From: Hanstruepera ponticola
GTDB lineage: Bacteria; Bacteroidota; Bacteroidia; Flavobacteriales; Flavobacteriaceae
Direction: 5' to 3'
Length of the DNA stretch: 64,000 nucleotides
Assembly (NCBI RefSeq): GCF_012931685.1
Contig: NZ_JABANC010000001.1
Span: 1,240,001 to 1,304,000, forward strand
Part shown: piece by piece, positions 2,830 through 19,816 of the stretch
How positions within the stretch are numbered: the first letter of the stretch is position 1
Layout of the letters: each line of letters opens with the position of its first letter
The notes under the pieces: generated by a model
Databases searched by the model: none
What the model was told of the DNA's origin: nothing
The model's input: only the letters and a program-made list of their open reading frames with translations
Program-made: the position numbers and the translations under genes

Positions 2830-4836
2830 TTGGCAGCAAACGAGAAGAACATATTGAACCGATTGTATTTTATAGCAGGATGTATGTTCATCTTCGCTCT
2901 AGCAGTGGTGTTCAAATTATTGAGCATTCAGTTTATGCAAGGTGATAAGTACAGAAGTTTAGCTGAAGAACGAACTATTAAGGACGTAGTTATTCCTGCT
3001 AATCGTGGCAATGTGTATTCAGCAAATGGGAATCTTCTCGCTACCTCTATTCCAAAGTATGATATACGAATAGATGCTATTACACCATCATCCGTGACAT
3101 TTGAAAAGTACTTAAAGCCACTTTGCGATTCGCTATCGGTTTTTTCAGGAAAGTCAACCTCATATTATGAAAAATTGATTAGAAAGGCACGTGCCAATAA
3201 AAATAGGTACTTACTACTTGCTAGAAATATTGGCTATTCAGATTATATACGTGTTAGAAATTTTCCCATGTTAAATCTGGGTGCTTTTAAAGGAGGTTTA
3301 ATTGTTGAGCAGACCACCAAGCGTGAACATCCTATGGGTGGCATTGCGCAAAGGTCAATTGGTTATGAAAGACATGATGAAAATGGCAATATAACTAGAG
3401 CAGGGTTGGATGGTGCCTTTGGAGCTAAATATTTACGAGGGAAAGATGGTCATCGTCTTAAGCAAAGAATAGGTAAAGGTCAATGGAAACCTATAGTGGA
3501 TTATAATCAGGTTGAACCTAAAGACGGTTATGATATTTACACGACTATTAGCGTCAACATTCAAGATATTGCCCACCATGCTTTATTACAGCAATTAGAA
3601 TATTATGAAGCAGAGCATGGTTGTGTTGTTGTGATGGAAGTTGAAACAGGTGAAATTAGAGCGATTTCTAATCTAGGCAGAACGAGCAAAGGTACTTATT
3701 ATGAAAAGTTGAATTATGCCGTTGGTGAGTCACATGAGCCTGGCTCTACCTTTAAAGTTATGGCTTTAATGGCTGCATTGGAGGATAAAGTAATTGATAC
3801 TTCAACGATTGTTGATACCAAAAGAGGGCGTAAAATGTTCTATGGTCGATACATTAATGACTCCCGTCATGGTGGGTATGGAGAAATATCAGCTGCTAGA
3901 TCTTTAGAAGTTTCATCAAACATAGGCTTGGCAACTATAATTGATGATAACTATGCTAAAACACCAGAGAAGTTTTTAAATAGAATAAAAAGCTGGAAAC
4001 TTCATAAGCCTTTAGGATTACCAATTTTAGGTGAAGGTAAACCAGCAATTTATGAACCAGGCCATGAGAAATGGAGTAAAAATGCCTTGCCATCAATGGC
4101 TTATGGTTACAATCTGTCTCTTACGCCTTTGCAAACCTTAACTTTTTATAATGCGATAGCTAATAATGGTGTGATGGTGAAGCCACGTTTTATAAGGGAA
4201 GTTAAAGAATTGGATAAGCAAATAGAAAGTTTTGATAAGGAAATCATTAATAACAAAATCTGTTCAGATAAAACATTAAAAGAAGTTCAAGAAATACTTA
4301 AAAATGTTGTGGTTAGAGGAACCGGTCGGTCATTGTATTCACCATACTTTTCTATGGCTGGTAAAACTGGAACTGCCAAAACAGAATATTGGATGTCAGA
4401 TTGGGAAGACAATAGGCGTTACGTGTCTTCTTTCGCTGGATATTTTCCAGCAGAGAACCCAAAATATTCATGCATAGTAGTTATCCATAAGCCAAGTGTA
4501 GAAAAAGGATATTATGGAGCCGATGTAACAGGGCCAGTTTTTAAGCGAATTGCTCAAAAAATATTTACGGATACGCCATTAATTGATCAGGTGGAATCTT
4601 TAGAGATAAAACAGGCTTCAGTTGAAAACGAATATGAACTTTACTATGATATCTCTGAAAAACATAAAACGATAATGCCCAATGTTGTTGGATTACCTAC
4701 AATGGATGCTATTGCTATTCTAGAGAATATGGGATTAAAAGTGAGAACGCAAGGTGTTGGTGAAGTTAAATCACAGTCAATCAACAAAGGAGACAAAGTA
4801 AAGCGAAGTCAAACAGTAGTAATTGAAGCCTCATGA
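2830..4836 (+). CDS. ftsI: Septal peptidoglycan transpeptidase FtsI (PBP3) with PASTA domain
   Basis: A 668-aa class B penicillin-binding protein that cross-links septal peptidoglycan. An N-terminal transmembrane helix (about residues 10-30) is followed by the PBP dimerisation domain and the transpeptidase domain. The active-site motifs are STFK (Ser306-Lys309), SSN (362-364) and KTG (512-514). A single C-terminal PASTA domain (about 612-668, beginning MPNVVGLP) is present, as in other flavobacterial FtsI proteins. The start is TTG at 2830; no ATG precedes the hydrophobic helix. The last four bases overlap murE (ATGA), indicating coupled translation. Confidence 0.95.
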   Translation: MAANEKNILNRLYFIAGCMFIFALAVVFKLLSIQFMQGDKYRSLAEERTIKDVVIPANRGNVYSANGNLLATSIPKYDIRIDAITPSSVTFEKYLKPLCDSLSVFSGKSTSYYEKLIRKARANKNRYLLLARNIGYSDYIRVRNFPMLNLGAFKGGLIVEQTTKREHPMGGIAQRSIGYERHDENGNITRAGLDGAFGAKYLRGKDGHRLKQRIGKGQWKPIVDYNQVEPKDGYDIYTTISVNIQDIAHHALLQQLEYYEAEHGCVVVMEVETGEIRAISNLGRTSKGTYYEKLNYAVGESHEPGSTFKVMALMAALEDKVIDTSTIVDTKRGRKMFYGRYINDSRHGGYGEISAARSLEVSSNIGLATIIDDNYAKTPEKFLNRIKSWKLHKPLGLPILGEGKPAIYEPGHEKWSKNALPSMAYGYNLSLTPLQTLTFYNAIANNGVMVKPRFIREVKELDKQIESFDKEIINNKICSDKTLKEVQEILKNVVVRGTGRSLYSPYFSMAGKTGTAKTEYWMSDWEDNRRYVSSFAGYFPAENPKYSCIVVIHKPSVEKGYYGADVTGPVFKRIAQKIFTDTPLIDQVESLEIKQASVENEYELYYDISEKHKTIMPNVVGLPTMDAIAILENMGLKVRTQGVGEVKSQSINKGDKVKRSQTVVIEAS

Positions 4837-17210: not shown

Positions 17211-17421
17211 ATGAAAAGCGCCAAACTTGTTTGAGCGTTTTTTGTTTAAACTATTTTCAAAACGGAACGTATAGGGAGCTATAATCCCTTTTAAAGATGA
17301 AAAGCGCCAAACTTGTTTGAGCGTTTTTTGTTTAAGCTATTTTCAAAACGGAACGTATAGGGAGCTATAATCCCTTTTAAAAGATGAAAAGCGCCAAACT
17401 TGTTTGAGCGTTTTTTTGTTT
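17211..17421. repeat. Tandem 86/87-bp repeat carrying terminator-like hairpins
   Basis: ATGAAAAGCGCC recurs at 17211, 17297 and 17384, giving two full units (86 and 87 bp) and a partial third. The first two differ by one substitution and one inserted A. Each unit begins with an imperfect hairpin, AAAAGCGCCAAAC / GTTTGAGCG, followed by six or seven T, resembling an intrinsic terminator. The two full units also hold AGGGA-GCTATAA-TCCCT, a 5-bp stem with a 7-base loop. The array fills the space between tRNA-Arg and the convergent glycosyltransferase gene. Confidence 0.85.
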
Positions 17422-17456: not shown

Positions 17457-19520
17457 TTATAAAAAATCCGGTACTTCAAAAATAACATTTTGTTGTTTTA
17501 ATACATCAACAACCATTTTTAAAGTATCATCCTCTTTATCTAGTATGGTTTCATTTTTCAGCAAAGCCTCAACCTGTTCTTTCATATTGCGATTATGGTA
17601 TTCTAAGTAAAGATTATCACCATTTAATAAAATTAAACAATCATTCTCAGTATATTCAATTTCAATGGAAGGGTTCACCTTAAGAATAGACACATTTTTT
17701 GGATACGCTTTTTGGAGAAGTTTATAGATTGAACCAATTACTCTATTAACAGTAATAGAATGTAAGCATATTTTATGCTCACAATTTAAAATTACATCAT
17801 AATTACAACGAATATTACACACACCCTGTTTACCCCAAATGATTTCATTGTTTTCCGAAAAACTCCCCCAACTTCCAGGGCCTGTAGGACCATAAATACC
17901 TACTGTAGGTACATTAAAGGCACCCGCTACATGGGTGATTCCTGCATCGTTACCAATGTGAAACAATGCACCAGACATAGCTCTTCCAACATCTTCCATA
18001 CCACCTTTAATATATGTCACATGCGGCATTGGTTTGGAGAAACAGGTGTCTATATTTGGATCATTAGGACCTTGAATAATTTTACATTTTAAATGTGGGT
18101 AAATATCTCTTAACTTTTCTATTAGTTCAGCATACTTTTCTGTTGGCCAAATCTTCATTAAAAACCCAGCACCATGATGAACTACAAAATAATCTTGTTG
18201 CTTTTTTTGCCTTTTAAAATATGGGTATTTTTCATGTTTATTATCAATTGATATATGCAGTTTTGAAACGGTATCTATATAATGGCTAATGGCGTGTTGT
18301 TTTACCTTTTTATGTGTTGGATACTTCAATGCGTGCGGTAAATCGTAACCTCTAAATGCAGGGTAGTTGCCTAACTCATAAATATTATCATATAAATGTT
18401 CTTCTTTTCTGGCGACTTCTTCATTAATAACAATGACTTGTGTTAAATGGGTTTTAAAAAAGTCAACCAACCTTGGCGCAACAGCAAAATGAACACATTT
18501 CGAAACTTTTGCCAGTTTATTAATAGCAGGTATGGCAAAAAAAATATCACCTAATCCACCATAGCTTTTATAGACTAATACTTGACCTAGATTTTCTGAA
18601 GATTTTTGTGCTTCCTTGTTTAGAATGGTTTCCGTTTCAATCCAAAAATCATTTAGGGCATCTTTCATCTCCTGAATGGCTCTCACTTTGTCATCGGGAT
18701 AAAAGTCAAATGAAAATGTGCCTATCCTGTCATTTCCTATGATATTACAGCCGGAAAGAAATGCTTCAGCAGCTAGTCTTCCTGAGGGTTCAGGCCAAAC
18801 AGGTTGGCAAATGAAGGTCTCTGTTTTTCCTAGTATTTCCAGAACTTTATCGTTACTTATAGGCTCATGGAATGTGATGTTATCAGGTAAGACTTGCTTT
18901 AATTGATTTCGCCCGTAAACAGGAAATTTAACTTCTGGATGGTTTTCAGCGTAAGCAGCATATGCTTTACCACCTTTTAAATAATTTAAATCACCAAAAA
19001 AAGGAATATTATCATTAATTTTTTCATTTGATGGTTTTAAGTCATCAACGAAAACGGTAGGTGGCATAATGAAGTAGTTTGATAATGCTTCACCATAGAA
19101 TTCATAATGCGCTTGATAATGTTTTGGAGATTGAAAGATATTTAGATTGGCTTTAGCAAATAGTTTTCTGTAGAGATGAAATTTTTCTGAATTGCAACAA
19201 TTGGTGATTTTTTTATCAACCGTACATAAAATATTACGCCTTACGCAAAAATTGTAGTCAAATTCAATTTTTATATAGGGTTTATTTATTTTTAAAATTT
19301 GCTTAATTAAATCAATTTCAAAGCGACAACGGGAAGTGCTACAATAAATAATAATATCTGTTTCAGATATAAGTTTTTTGGTCTTTTCAAAGTTTCTTAA
19401 GCTGTCTAATTTGACATTGTGTCGTCGCTTTACACCTAATTCTATTAATTGTTTTATAGTAAGCTCTGCACCTCTGGGAGTTGATAAAGCAGTGTCATGT
19501 AAAAATAAAATGTTCTTCAA
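17457..19520 (-). CDS. Double glycosyltransferase (GT4-like + GT9) with PqqD/RRE-like C-terminus
   Basis: A 687-aa cytosolic protein with three parts. Residues 1-300 resemble a GT4 transferase: RGAELT near the start and EPSGRLAAEAFLSG as the EX7E-type nucleotide-sugar motif. Residues 315-600 resemble a GT9 heptosyltransferase: GGLGDIFFAIPA near 320, HHGAGFLMKIWPTEKYAEL near 450, and IGNDAGITHVAG...GIYGPTGPGSWG near 520. A C-x3-C...C-x3-C cluster follows, a usual GT9 ending. Residues 610-687 form two beta-strands and helices like a PqqD-type winged helix. The domain order is seen; the RRE resemblance is inferred by eye. The acceptor is unknown. It lies 65 bases downstream of the DDGYY lipopeptide gene on the same strand, suggesting co-transcription. 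Confidence 0.75.
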   Translation of the reverse strand: MKNILFLHDTALSTPRGAELTIKQLIELGVKRRHNVKLDSLRNFEKTKKLISETDIIIYCSTSRCRFEIDLIKQILKINKPYIKIEFDYNFCVRRNILCTVDKKITNCCNSEKFHLYRKLFAKANLNIFQSPKHYQAHYEFYGEALSNYFIMPPTVFVDDLKPSNEKINDNIPFFGDLNYLKGGKAYAAYAENHPEVKFPVYGRNQLKQVLPDNITFHEPISNDKVLEILGKTETFICQPVWPEPSGRLAAEAFLSGCNIIGNDRIGTFSFDFYPDDKVRAIQEMKDALNDFWIETETILNKEAQKSSENLGQVLVYKSYGGLGDIFFAIPAINKLAKVSKCVHFAVAPRLVDFFKTHLTQVIVINEEVARKEEHLYDNIYELGNYPAFRGYDLPHALKYPTHKKVKQHAISHYIDTVSKLHISIDNKHEKYPYFKRQKKQQDYFVVHHGAGFLMKIWPTEKYAELIEKLRDIYPHLKCKIIQGPNDPNIDTCFSKPMPHVTYIKGGMEDVGRAMSGALFHIGNDAGITHVAGAFNVPTVGIYGPTGPGSWGSFSENNEIIWGKQGVCNIRCNYDVILNCEHKICLHSITVNRVIGSIYKLLQKAYPKNVSILKVNPSIEIEYTENDCLILLNGDNLYLEYHNRNMKEQVEALLKNETILDKEDDTLKMVVDVLKQQNVIFEVPDFL

Positions 19521-19585
19521 TTCAATTGATTTTAAATGCCATAACTTAATAAAACAGCATCTTCTGAAAATAAATTTCGTTAATT

Positions 19586-19816
19586 CTAATAACCATCATC
19601 ATAATAACCATCATCATAATAACCATCATCATAATAACCATCATCATAATAACCATCATCATAATAACCATCATCATAATAACCATCACCATAATAGCCT
19701 CCATTGAAATTGTCATCATCATTACTGCATGATGTTATCAATGATGCTGTAATTGAAATAGCTGAAATTGCTAAAATTGTTTTTCCAGATTTTTTTATGA
19801 AGTTTCTTCTGTCCAT
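19586..19816 (-). CDS. Tat-signal lipopeptide with C-terminal DDGYY repeats
   Basis: A 76-aa protein with two parts. The N-terminus has twin arginines (MDRRNFIKK), a hydrophobic segment (about residues 13-27) and a lipobox ending at Cys30 (LITSC). This predicts Tat export and lipid attachment. The mature part is SNDDDNFN followed by GGYY, GDGYY and six DDGY(Y) units made of Asp, Gly and Tyr only. The stop TAG replaces a repeat TAT codon. No function is known to me. Tat use suggests that the chain is folded or modified in the cytoplasm before export. The downstream glycosyltransferase with an RRE-like tail is the candidate partner. Confidence 0.72.
   Translation of the reverse strand: MDRRNFIKKSGKTILAISAISITASLITSCSNDDDNFNGGYYGDGYYDDGYYDDGYYDDGYYDDGYYDDGYYDDGY
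19589..19695. repeat. 15-bp minisatellite inside the lipopeptide gene
   Basis: On the plus strand the unit AACCATCATCATAAT repeats six times without change from 19591 to 19680. A seventh copy at 19681-19695 has one substitution (CACC for CATC). On the coding strand each unit encodes five residues of the DDGYY pattern, so copy-number changes keep the frame. Confidence 0.92.

Follow-up and report, generated by a model that had tools for sequence, protein, structure and literature searches.

A fused glycosyltransferase and a DGYY repeat lipopeptide encoded side by side in Flavobacteriaceae: a probable maturase and its substrate

The genome of Hanstruepera ponticola (Bacteroidota; Flavobacteriaceae) carries two adjacent minus-strand genes, one for a fused glycosyltransferase (GT) and one for a short lipopeptide with a DGYY repeat. 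Both lie in the 64,000-nucleotide stretch analyzed here, which we call the window (NCBI RefSeq assembly GCF_012931685.1, contig NZ_JABANC010000001.1, positions 1,240,001 to 1,304,000). A preliminary description, made from the letters of the window, had placed the enzyme gene 65 bases from the gene of a peptide with a twin-arginine translocation (Tat) signal, a lipobox and the repeat; both genes were found at these positions. We propose that the two products are probably a maturase and its substrate: the repeat would be glycosylated, most likely on Tyr, exported by the Tat system and presented as a surface glycolipopeptide. The pair itself, the domains and putative catalytic residues of the enzyme, the predicted signal and lipobox of the peptide, and the apparent selection on DGYY can all be read from the sequence.

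The enzyme has homologues in 27 of 397 genomes of the family, about 7%. Upstream sequence is intact at 37 distinct enzyme loci, a set from which one locus at a contig edge (L025) was left out; in all 37 the peptide gene lies directly upstream on the same strand, with a gap of 3–183 nt (median 63). Neighborhood elsewhere had been set as a test in the preliminary description, and the pairing passed it without exception. The peptide search found 30 family genomes, four of which (G034, G271, G276 and G371) proved to hold ordinary lipoproteins without the repeat; all of the remaining 26 also have the enzyme (hypergeometric probability 7e-40, a value that ignores kinship and linkage). In the 27th enzyme-bearing genome (G132) the enzyme gene is located at a contig edge; the N-terminus of this enzyme has no Pfam match, and an assignment of it to GT25 was dropped. 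The nearest downstream neighbors of the pair belong to 13 families, one of them GT2, so that the pair stays together whatever its surroundings. In a sample of the class, the enzyme profile matched the host alone, 1 of 345 genomes (E 1e-45), and the peptide was found in 2 of 247, namely the host and one false match, an unrelated Asn/Tyr-rich protein in G495. The two-gene unit is thus rare outside the family; one such member was found, in Moheibacter lacus of the Weeksellaceae. Taken together, these observations are strong evidence that the gene pair is real and conserved.

The window peptide reads MDRRNFIKKSG...ITSC(30)SNDDDNFNGGYYGDGYY(DDGYY)nDDGY, and its mature part is composed mostly of Asp, Gly and Tyr. 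To enter the repeat, pN/pS (nonsynonymous to synonymous) and lipobox counts, a peptide had to contain three or more GYY and the motif M-x-R-R-x-F. The repeat units of the 39 distinct peptides are DDGYY (230), GDGYY (50), NDGYY (16) and rarer forms. For the pentad counts and pN/pS, two peptides with an out-of-register repeat were left out; in the 321 pentads of the other 37 genes, Tyr5 is kept in 321, Tyr4 in 319, Gly3 in 317 and Asp2 in 309, while position 1 varies. These counts are slightly flattered, as GYY served as the anchor for the two end pentads of every gene. Between the units of these genes the pooled pN/pS is 0.046 (pN 0.046, pS about 1.0, which is saturated). Silent sites are thus saturated and DGYY is nevertheless kept, which argues for selection and not slippage; the sequence evidence for protein-level selection on the repeat is strong. 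That the repeat is a functionless, low-complexity product of DNA slippage is suggested by the window copy, whose units are near-identical in DNA: its seven full units have three distinct DNA forms, and its pS of 0.17 is an exception that marks the DNA as young. In most other copies nearly each unit has its own DNA (14 of 14 in L016) and encodes the same protein. Accordingly, a slippage artefact was ruled out by the pN/pS value, and we give this explanation almost no credence.

Both the twin-arginine signal and the lipobox Cys30 claimed earlier for the 76-residue peptide were confirmed when its translation was read again. M-x-R-R-x-F occurs in 37 of 37 GYY-repeat open reading frames (ORFs) lying up to 400 nt upstream of the enzyme, a count made without any filter for the motif; in the filtered peptide set above, its presence is partly by construction, because it was an entry filter. 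TatC is present in all 28 enzyme-bearing genomes. As the peptide carries a twin-arginine motif and the cells have a Tat system, it has the features of a Tat substrate, Tat dependence itself being predicted. The lipobox Cys is located at position 30 in 38 of the 39 distinct peptides and at position 31 in one, and all 39 have 2–4 acidic residues within the six residues that follow it. The lipoprotein export signal (LES) of flavobacteria is described with the consensus SDDFE/SDDDD (PMC5080379). Owing to the resemblance of the acidic stretch to the LES, the DGYY lipopeptide is likely displayed on the cell surface.

The enzyme has the GT4-like plus GT9 architecture suggested in the preliminary description, the GT9 part being clear by Pfam and the GT4 part by fold. 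The GT9 family model PF01075 matches residues 418–564 with an E-value of 1.2e-17 and 64.5 bits, against a cut-off of 22. The AlphaFold model of the enzyme has a mean predicted local distance difference test score (pLDDT) of 81.2. In this model, residues 1–303 take a GT4-type fold (VIA-align Z up to 21.8, 289 residues aligned, root-mean-square deviation (rmsd) 3.0) and carry the E-x7-E pattern, which we take to be a GT4 signature. The corresponding Pfam match of the window protein (E 0.0017) is below the cut-off, and that of the L040 homologue (E 1e-6) is above it. The 50 best VIA-align matches of the full model were GT4-type and other chains over residues 1–303 and say little on the GT9 half or the tail. 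With Foldseek, WaaC, a Veillonella GT9 and TibC rank high for the whole model. In a profile alignment to WaaC, D325 falls on the catalytic Asp, K456 on a Lys and D525 on an Asp, the roles of these WaaC residues being those that we presume. The window gene starts with TTG; the same residue is Met in 15 aligned homologues. Within the GT4-type half, five Cys residues of the N-lobe (C65, C92, C99, C108 and C109) are invariant in 16 sequences, and some are retained in a shortened homologue (L027); perhaps they form a metal site.

Beyond the GT9 domain, the enzyme carries a C-terminal tail that resembles the RiPP recognition element (RRE) found in pathways of ribosomally synthesized and post-translationally modified peptides (RiPPs). 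The GT9 model TIGR02195 already stops at residue 602, so residues 606–687 are an added domain, and the tail as a mere extension of GT9 was ruled out. When modelled alone (pLDDT 79.2), the tail has the predicted order b-b-b-b-a-a-b with two helices. The first eight Foldseek ranks are all RRE-bearing proteins: ThcOx (three chains), TruD, LynD (two chains), the PbtF RRE and TbiB1. Here we take ThcOx, TruD and LynD to contain an RRE and the 4v1 entries to be LynD; the matches in these three proteins map to their N-terminal ∼90 residues. VIA-align also places the PbtF RRE first (Z 8.4, borderline by the tool's own note; 74 residues, rmsd 2.6), followed by ThcOx (7.8), TbiB1 (7.7), ThcOx (7.7) and TbiB1 (7.5); ribosomal oxygenases and a lasso-peptide B1 protein appear from 6.9 downward, and PqqD scores 5.0. 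As is expected of an RRE protein, the enzyme has a precursor-like peptide encoded nearby, in 37 of 37 distinct loci. We have moderate confidence that the tail is an RRE-like domain, which may bind a leader. For the PqqD-type winged helix proposed earlier, the top structural matches bear an RRE but have weak E-values; a relation to the PqqD/RRE sequence families was not found, and the tail is one helix short.

In the mechanism that we favor, the Tat-lipobox peptide would be made in the cytoplasm and held by the RRE-like tail (or by the GT4 N-lobe). The GT9 domain would add a sugar to the repeat units, most likely to Tyr, and further sugars would come from the fused GT4 domain, or from a neighboring GT2 in other genomes. 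The modified peptide would be exported via Tat, lipidated at Cys30 and flipped to the surface as a short glycolipopeptide. Export is placed after modification because Tat carries finished chains. Glycosylation of the repeat peptide is likely; the acceptor residue, the order of steps and the surface location are those that we infer. Since Tyr is the strictest residue of the repeat, it is probably the acceptor. O-glycosylation of Tyr is described for the RiPP cacaoidin (PMC8068269), and Tyr glycosylation for S-layers (PMC2943079).

With the same maturase–substrate pair, the product could instead be a sugar ester of the Asp side chain, or another modification of Asp or Tyr triggered by the RRE-like tail. 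Asp and Tyr are equally common in the repeat part of the mature peptides (673 and 670 of 1980 residues), and Asp occupies position 2 in 309 of 321 pentads; the two Tyr positions are stricter (321 and 319 of 321). Moreover, D325 as the GT9 base would suit a hydroxyl acceptor, as judged from WaaC and TibC, and glycosyl esters of Asp are rare. We consider an Asp-directed or other modification unlikely.

The arrangement of the loci elsewhere bears on what the peptide does. GT9 plus tail is the constant core of every enzyme locus, whereas the partner GT varies, GT4 being the partner in most. Only the N-terminal part of the GT4 half is kept in L027, where the E-x7-E stretch is gone, and in L026 and L028 GT9 plus tail stands alone. 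A GT2 gene found in 6 of the 397 family genomes is located at a DGYY locus in five; it adjoins the peptide gene in the host and the GT9 gene in the four others, in two of them on the opposite strand. In the sixth genome (G409) the GT2 homologue lies in an apparent surface-glycan cluster, as read by eye. In the host, this GT2 gene and a second, shorter DGYY gene lie between two genes that we presume to be rluD and yaaA. The same site carries a GT4–GT9 pair in L007, L008 and L023, and L026 shares its rluD side. Different transferases round one repeat peptide are what is expected if the peptide is the acceptor.

Such a set of transferases could, however, serve a carrier or primer. The DGYY lipoprotein would then be a scaffold on which the GTs, in a glycogenin-like manner, only start a longer glycan, and the product would be a lipoprotein-anchored surface polysaccharide. 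The two or three different GTs per locus (fused GT4 and GT9, with a separate GT2 or DUF5672-GT2) and the apparently ordinary surface-glycan genes round the GT2 homologue in G409 fit this explanation. Among the nameable shared flanking families there is no polymerase or flippase, in flanks that were not annotated systematically and span at most about 1.5 kb per side for 27 of the 37 loci; a long chain would need to pass Tat; and 31 of the 39 peptides have at least six GYY units, hence at least 12 closely packed Tyr. We regard a primer role as unlikely, if somewhat less so than modification of Asp. A further explanation is that the peptide is not a substrate at all: the enzyme would make a surface glycan, while the lipoprotein, acidic and rich in Tyr, would work unmodified, for example by binding a metal ion or that glycan. 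The NCBIfam models matched by the GT9 half are those of lipopolysaccharide (LPS) core enzymes, all below cut-off, and DDG repeats could bind cations. The RRE-like tail, the Tat rather than Sec signal, the strict adjacency of the genes and the retention of GT9 plus tail despite loss of the other GT domain speak for a substrate instead, and an unmodified peptide appears improbable.

Several observations weigh against the proposal that the repeat is a glycosylated substrate, and many of them concern the tail. In addition to the borderline VIA-align score, the E-values of its first eight Foldseek matches are weak (0.012 to 0.11), with no match at E 0.001 or better among 350,542 PDB chains. The tail is one helix short of the bbb-aaa order by which RREs are strictly defined in the text of PMC12710340; in L024 and L027 it has a longer loop, which may contain that helix. 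Its listed Pfam and NCBIfam matches, which extend to E 5, include no PqqD or RRE model, and a comparison with one PqqD-like protein by hhalign gave a probability of 0.1%. A sequence search of the PDB (E up to 10) had no RRE among the best 60 of its 67 matches; these are short stretches of viral haemagglutinin chains, which we take as chance. The tail is also much less conserved than the GT9 core, with a mean pairwise identity of 28% versus 57% (19 sequences). The authors of a study on lipidated RiPPs (DAG-RiPPs) expect such peptides to be mostly leader-independent, as stated in parts of PMC12636315, which speaks against an RRE reading the signal. The constant length of the signal was dropped as a sign of a leader, because control Tat lipoproteins from these genomes show it too: nine Gluconate_2-dh3 proteins, two of which start alike, from 6 of the 28 genomes have signals of constant length inside each of two subtypes. 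With regard to the donor, domain II of rfaE (ADP-heptose synthase) was found in 0 of the 28 enzyme-bearing genomes at E 1e-5, other routes not being searched. It was found in 5 of 24 other genomes, only below the curated cut-off, and in 11 of 14 controls (three over the cut-off). The usual GT9 donor is thus probably absent, and by its usual route ADP-heptose is an unlikely donor. The host's second DGYY gene has a GT2 neighbor and no GT9 neighbor. The overall interpretation in the preliminary description is supported in part: the adjacency elsewhere and the RRE-like fold of the tail favor it, and the missing PqqD/RRE family match, the weak structural E-values and the missing helix do not.

The pair shares features with several described systems. 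Like the DAG-RiPPs of the dyb and ned clusters, it would combine a small encoded peptide, a dedicated modifying enzyme and a lipidated N-terminal Cys, and the DGYY peptides have the lipoprotein signal with lipobox Cys that marks the class. According to the sections of PMC12636315 consulted, some DAG-RiPPs occur in Bacteroidota, three repeated motifs are found in NedA, and modification proceeds at a rate that can compete with lipoprotein export. In place of the MNIO oxidative enzymes described there, our pair has a GT with an RRE-like tail, and its peptide has a Tat-type signal; the words glycosyl, Tat and twin-arginine are absent from the main text of that article. Cacaoidin, a class V lanthipeptide, has a disaccharide O-linked to Tyr and a GT2 and a GT4 in its cluster; it is a Streptomyces product with one glycosylated Tyr, and the passages of PMC8068269 seen do not state lipidation, GT9 or an RRE-GT fusion. 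TibC and AAH, which are bacterial autotransporter heptosyltransferases (BAHTs), likewise have a GT9 fold, a neighboring gene for a repetitive exported protein and a C-lobe Cys cluster. As portrayed in the portions of PMC4358343 available to us, they differ in their acceptor (Ser of the autotransporter), N-terminal beta-barrel, Cys spacing and ADP-heptose donor. The BAHT iron finger reads C-x2-C-x15-C-x11-C in that source, whereas the four invariant Cys of our enzyme are spaced x3, x7 and x4. In place of the beta-barrel and the neighboring autotransporter there are an N-terminal GT4 fold and a 76-residue lipopeptide. Membership in the TibC type was ruled out by the Cys spacing, the N-terminus and the neighbor, and the donor synthase domain was not found.

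Fusions of a GT with an RRE have been reported from structure-based RRE mining; the family given in the portion of PMC12710340 seen is PF00535, and GT9 is not named there. Like the DGYY peptide, proteins described by TIGR04117 are short and repetitive, and they are named as targets of an enzyme; they differ in having Cys-Xaa-Xaa-Xaa repeats and a radical SAM enzyme. This model weakly matches the signal of the L027 peptide, over residues 2–34 only (E 0.0022, 18 bits against a cut-off of 50). The combination of GT9, RRE-like tail and Tat lipopeptide was not found described in open-licence PubMed Central text. The nearest kinds are lipoprotein–RiPP hybrids, glycosylated RiPPs and TibC-type enzymes, and the combination seems to be new.

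As a bolder and more tentative picture, to which we give a little less than an even chance, the pair would represent a RiPP-like class of surface glycolipopeptides. The RRE-tailed GT9 would densely glycosylate the Tyr residues of DGYY in the cytoplasm, Tat having been chosen so that modification finishes before export. The product would be a short, mucin-like, lipid-anchored coat, and the two genes behind it would form a portable unit in which the enzymes for the second sugar are exchangeable. If true, three things known apart, the protein-glycosylating GT9, RRE-guided modification and lipoprotein–RiPP hybrids, would be joined in one compact unit. The system would offer a new route to Tyr-glycosylated peptides and would let one ask why some modified lipoproteins use Tat and not Sec. 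With a repeat peptide and a single fused enzyme, reconstitution should be easy.

Table 1. Features of the gene pair in the window and of related loci (locus numbers precede coordinates outside the window)
Feature	Location	Strand	Basis
Fused glycosyltransferase gene, 687 aa, TTG start	17457..19520	-	ORF list; homologue in 27/397 family genomes
GT4-fold domain, residues 1-303; E244-x7-E252 present	18612..19520	-	VIA-align Z 21.8; weak Pfam Glycos_transf_1
GT9 domain, residues 310-605; D325, K456, D525 align with WaaC	17706..18593	-	Pfam PF01075, profile alignment, Foldseek
Four-cysteine cluster C568-x3-C572-x7-C580-x4-C585	17766..17819	-	Invariant in 19 aligned GT9 sequences
RRE-like winged-helix tail (predicted), residues 606-687 (82 aa), beyond GT9 domain	17460..17705	-	TIGR02195 end, tail model, Foldseek, VIA-align
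DGYY peptide gene, 76 aa: Tat signal, lipobox, D/G/Y repeat	19586..19816	-	ORF, re-read translation, directly upstream of GT in 37/37 distinct loci
Tat-type signal peptide (predicted), residues 1-29, M-x-R-R-x-F-[IL]-K	19730..19816	-	Motif count in upstream ORFs
Lipobox Cys30, then SNDDD, resembling Bacteroidetes lipoprotein export signal	19727..19729	-	Re-read translation, LES consensus
Repeat region: 7 xxGYY pentads and partial DDGY	19589..19705	-	Repeat and pN/pS counts, re-read translation
DUF5672 + GT2 gene beside stand-alone GT9 + tail and DGYY gene	L026:97-1473	-	Pfam
Gene like the L026 DUF5672 + GT2 gene, beside stand-alone GT9 + tail and DGYY gene	L028:1-1298	-	Sequence likeness
Second, shorter DGYY Tat lipoprotein gene of host genome	L075:8153-8332	-	Between rluD-like and yaaA-like genes
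GT2 gene beside host's second DGYY gene	L075:7081-7842	-	Same site

The surroundings of the pair in the window are ordinary: one flank has ftsQ, two genes that we take to be ftsA and ftsZ, YqeY and a tRNA-Arg, and the other has an M90 peptidase and a CBS protein. A near-identical stretch, AAAACGCTCAAACAAGTTTGGCGC (minus strand), occurs twice 3′ of the end of the enzyme gene, at 17300–17420 of the window, and a promoter scan gave an identical TTCAAA-N18-TATAAT match twice on the plus strand, at 17256 and 17342. His/Asn-rich and Met/Val-rich open frames run across the repeat DNA (19378–19707 on the plus strand and 19546–19722 on the minus strand) and look like by-products of the repeat. In 9 of the 39 distinct peptides (L016, at 3640–4305, and L013, L014, L017, L018, L019, L022, L060 and L063), the repeat is followed by a conserved domain of ∼112 residues. 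Pfam gave no match to this domain in L016, nor did NCBIfam in L016 and L006; the domain carries the motif N-G-S-N-T-N-x-G-x-W ... D-x-S-G-G-G-x-G-T-D-I-L.

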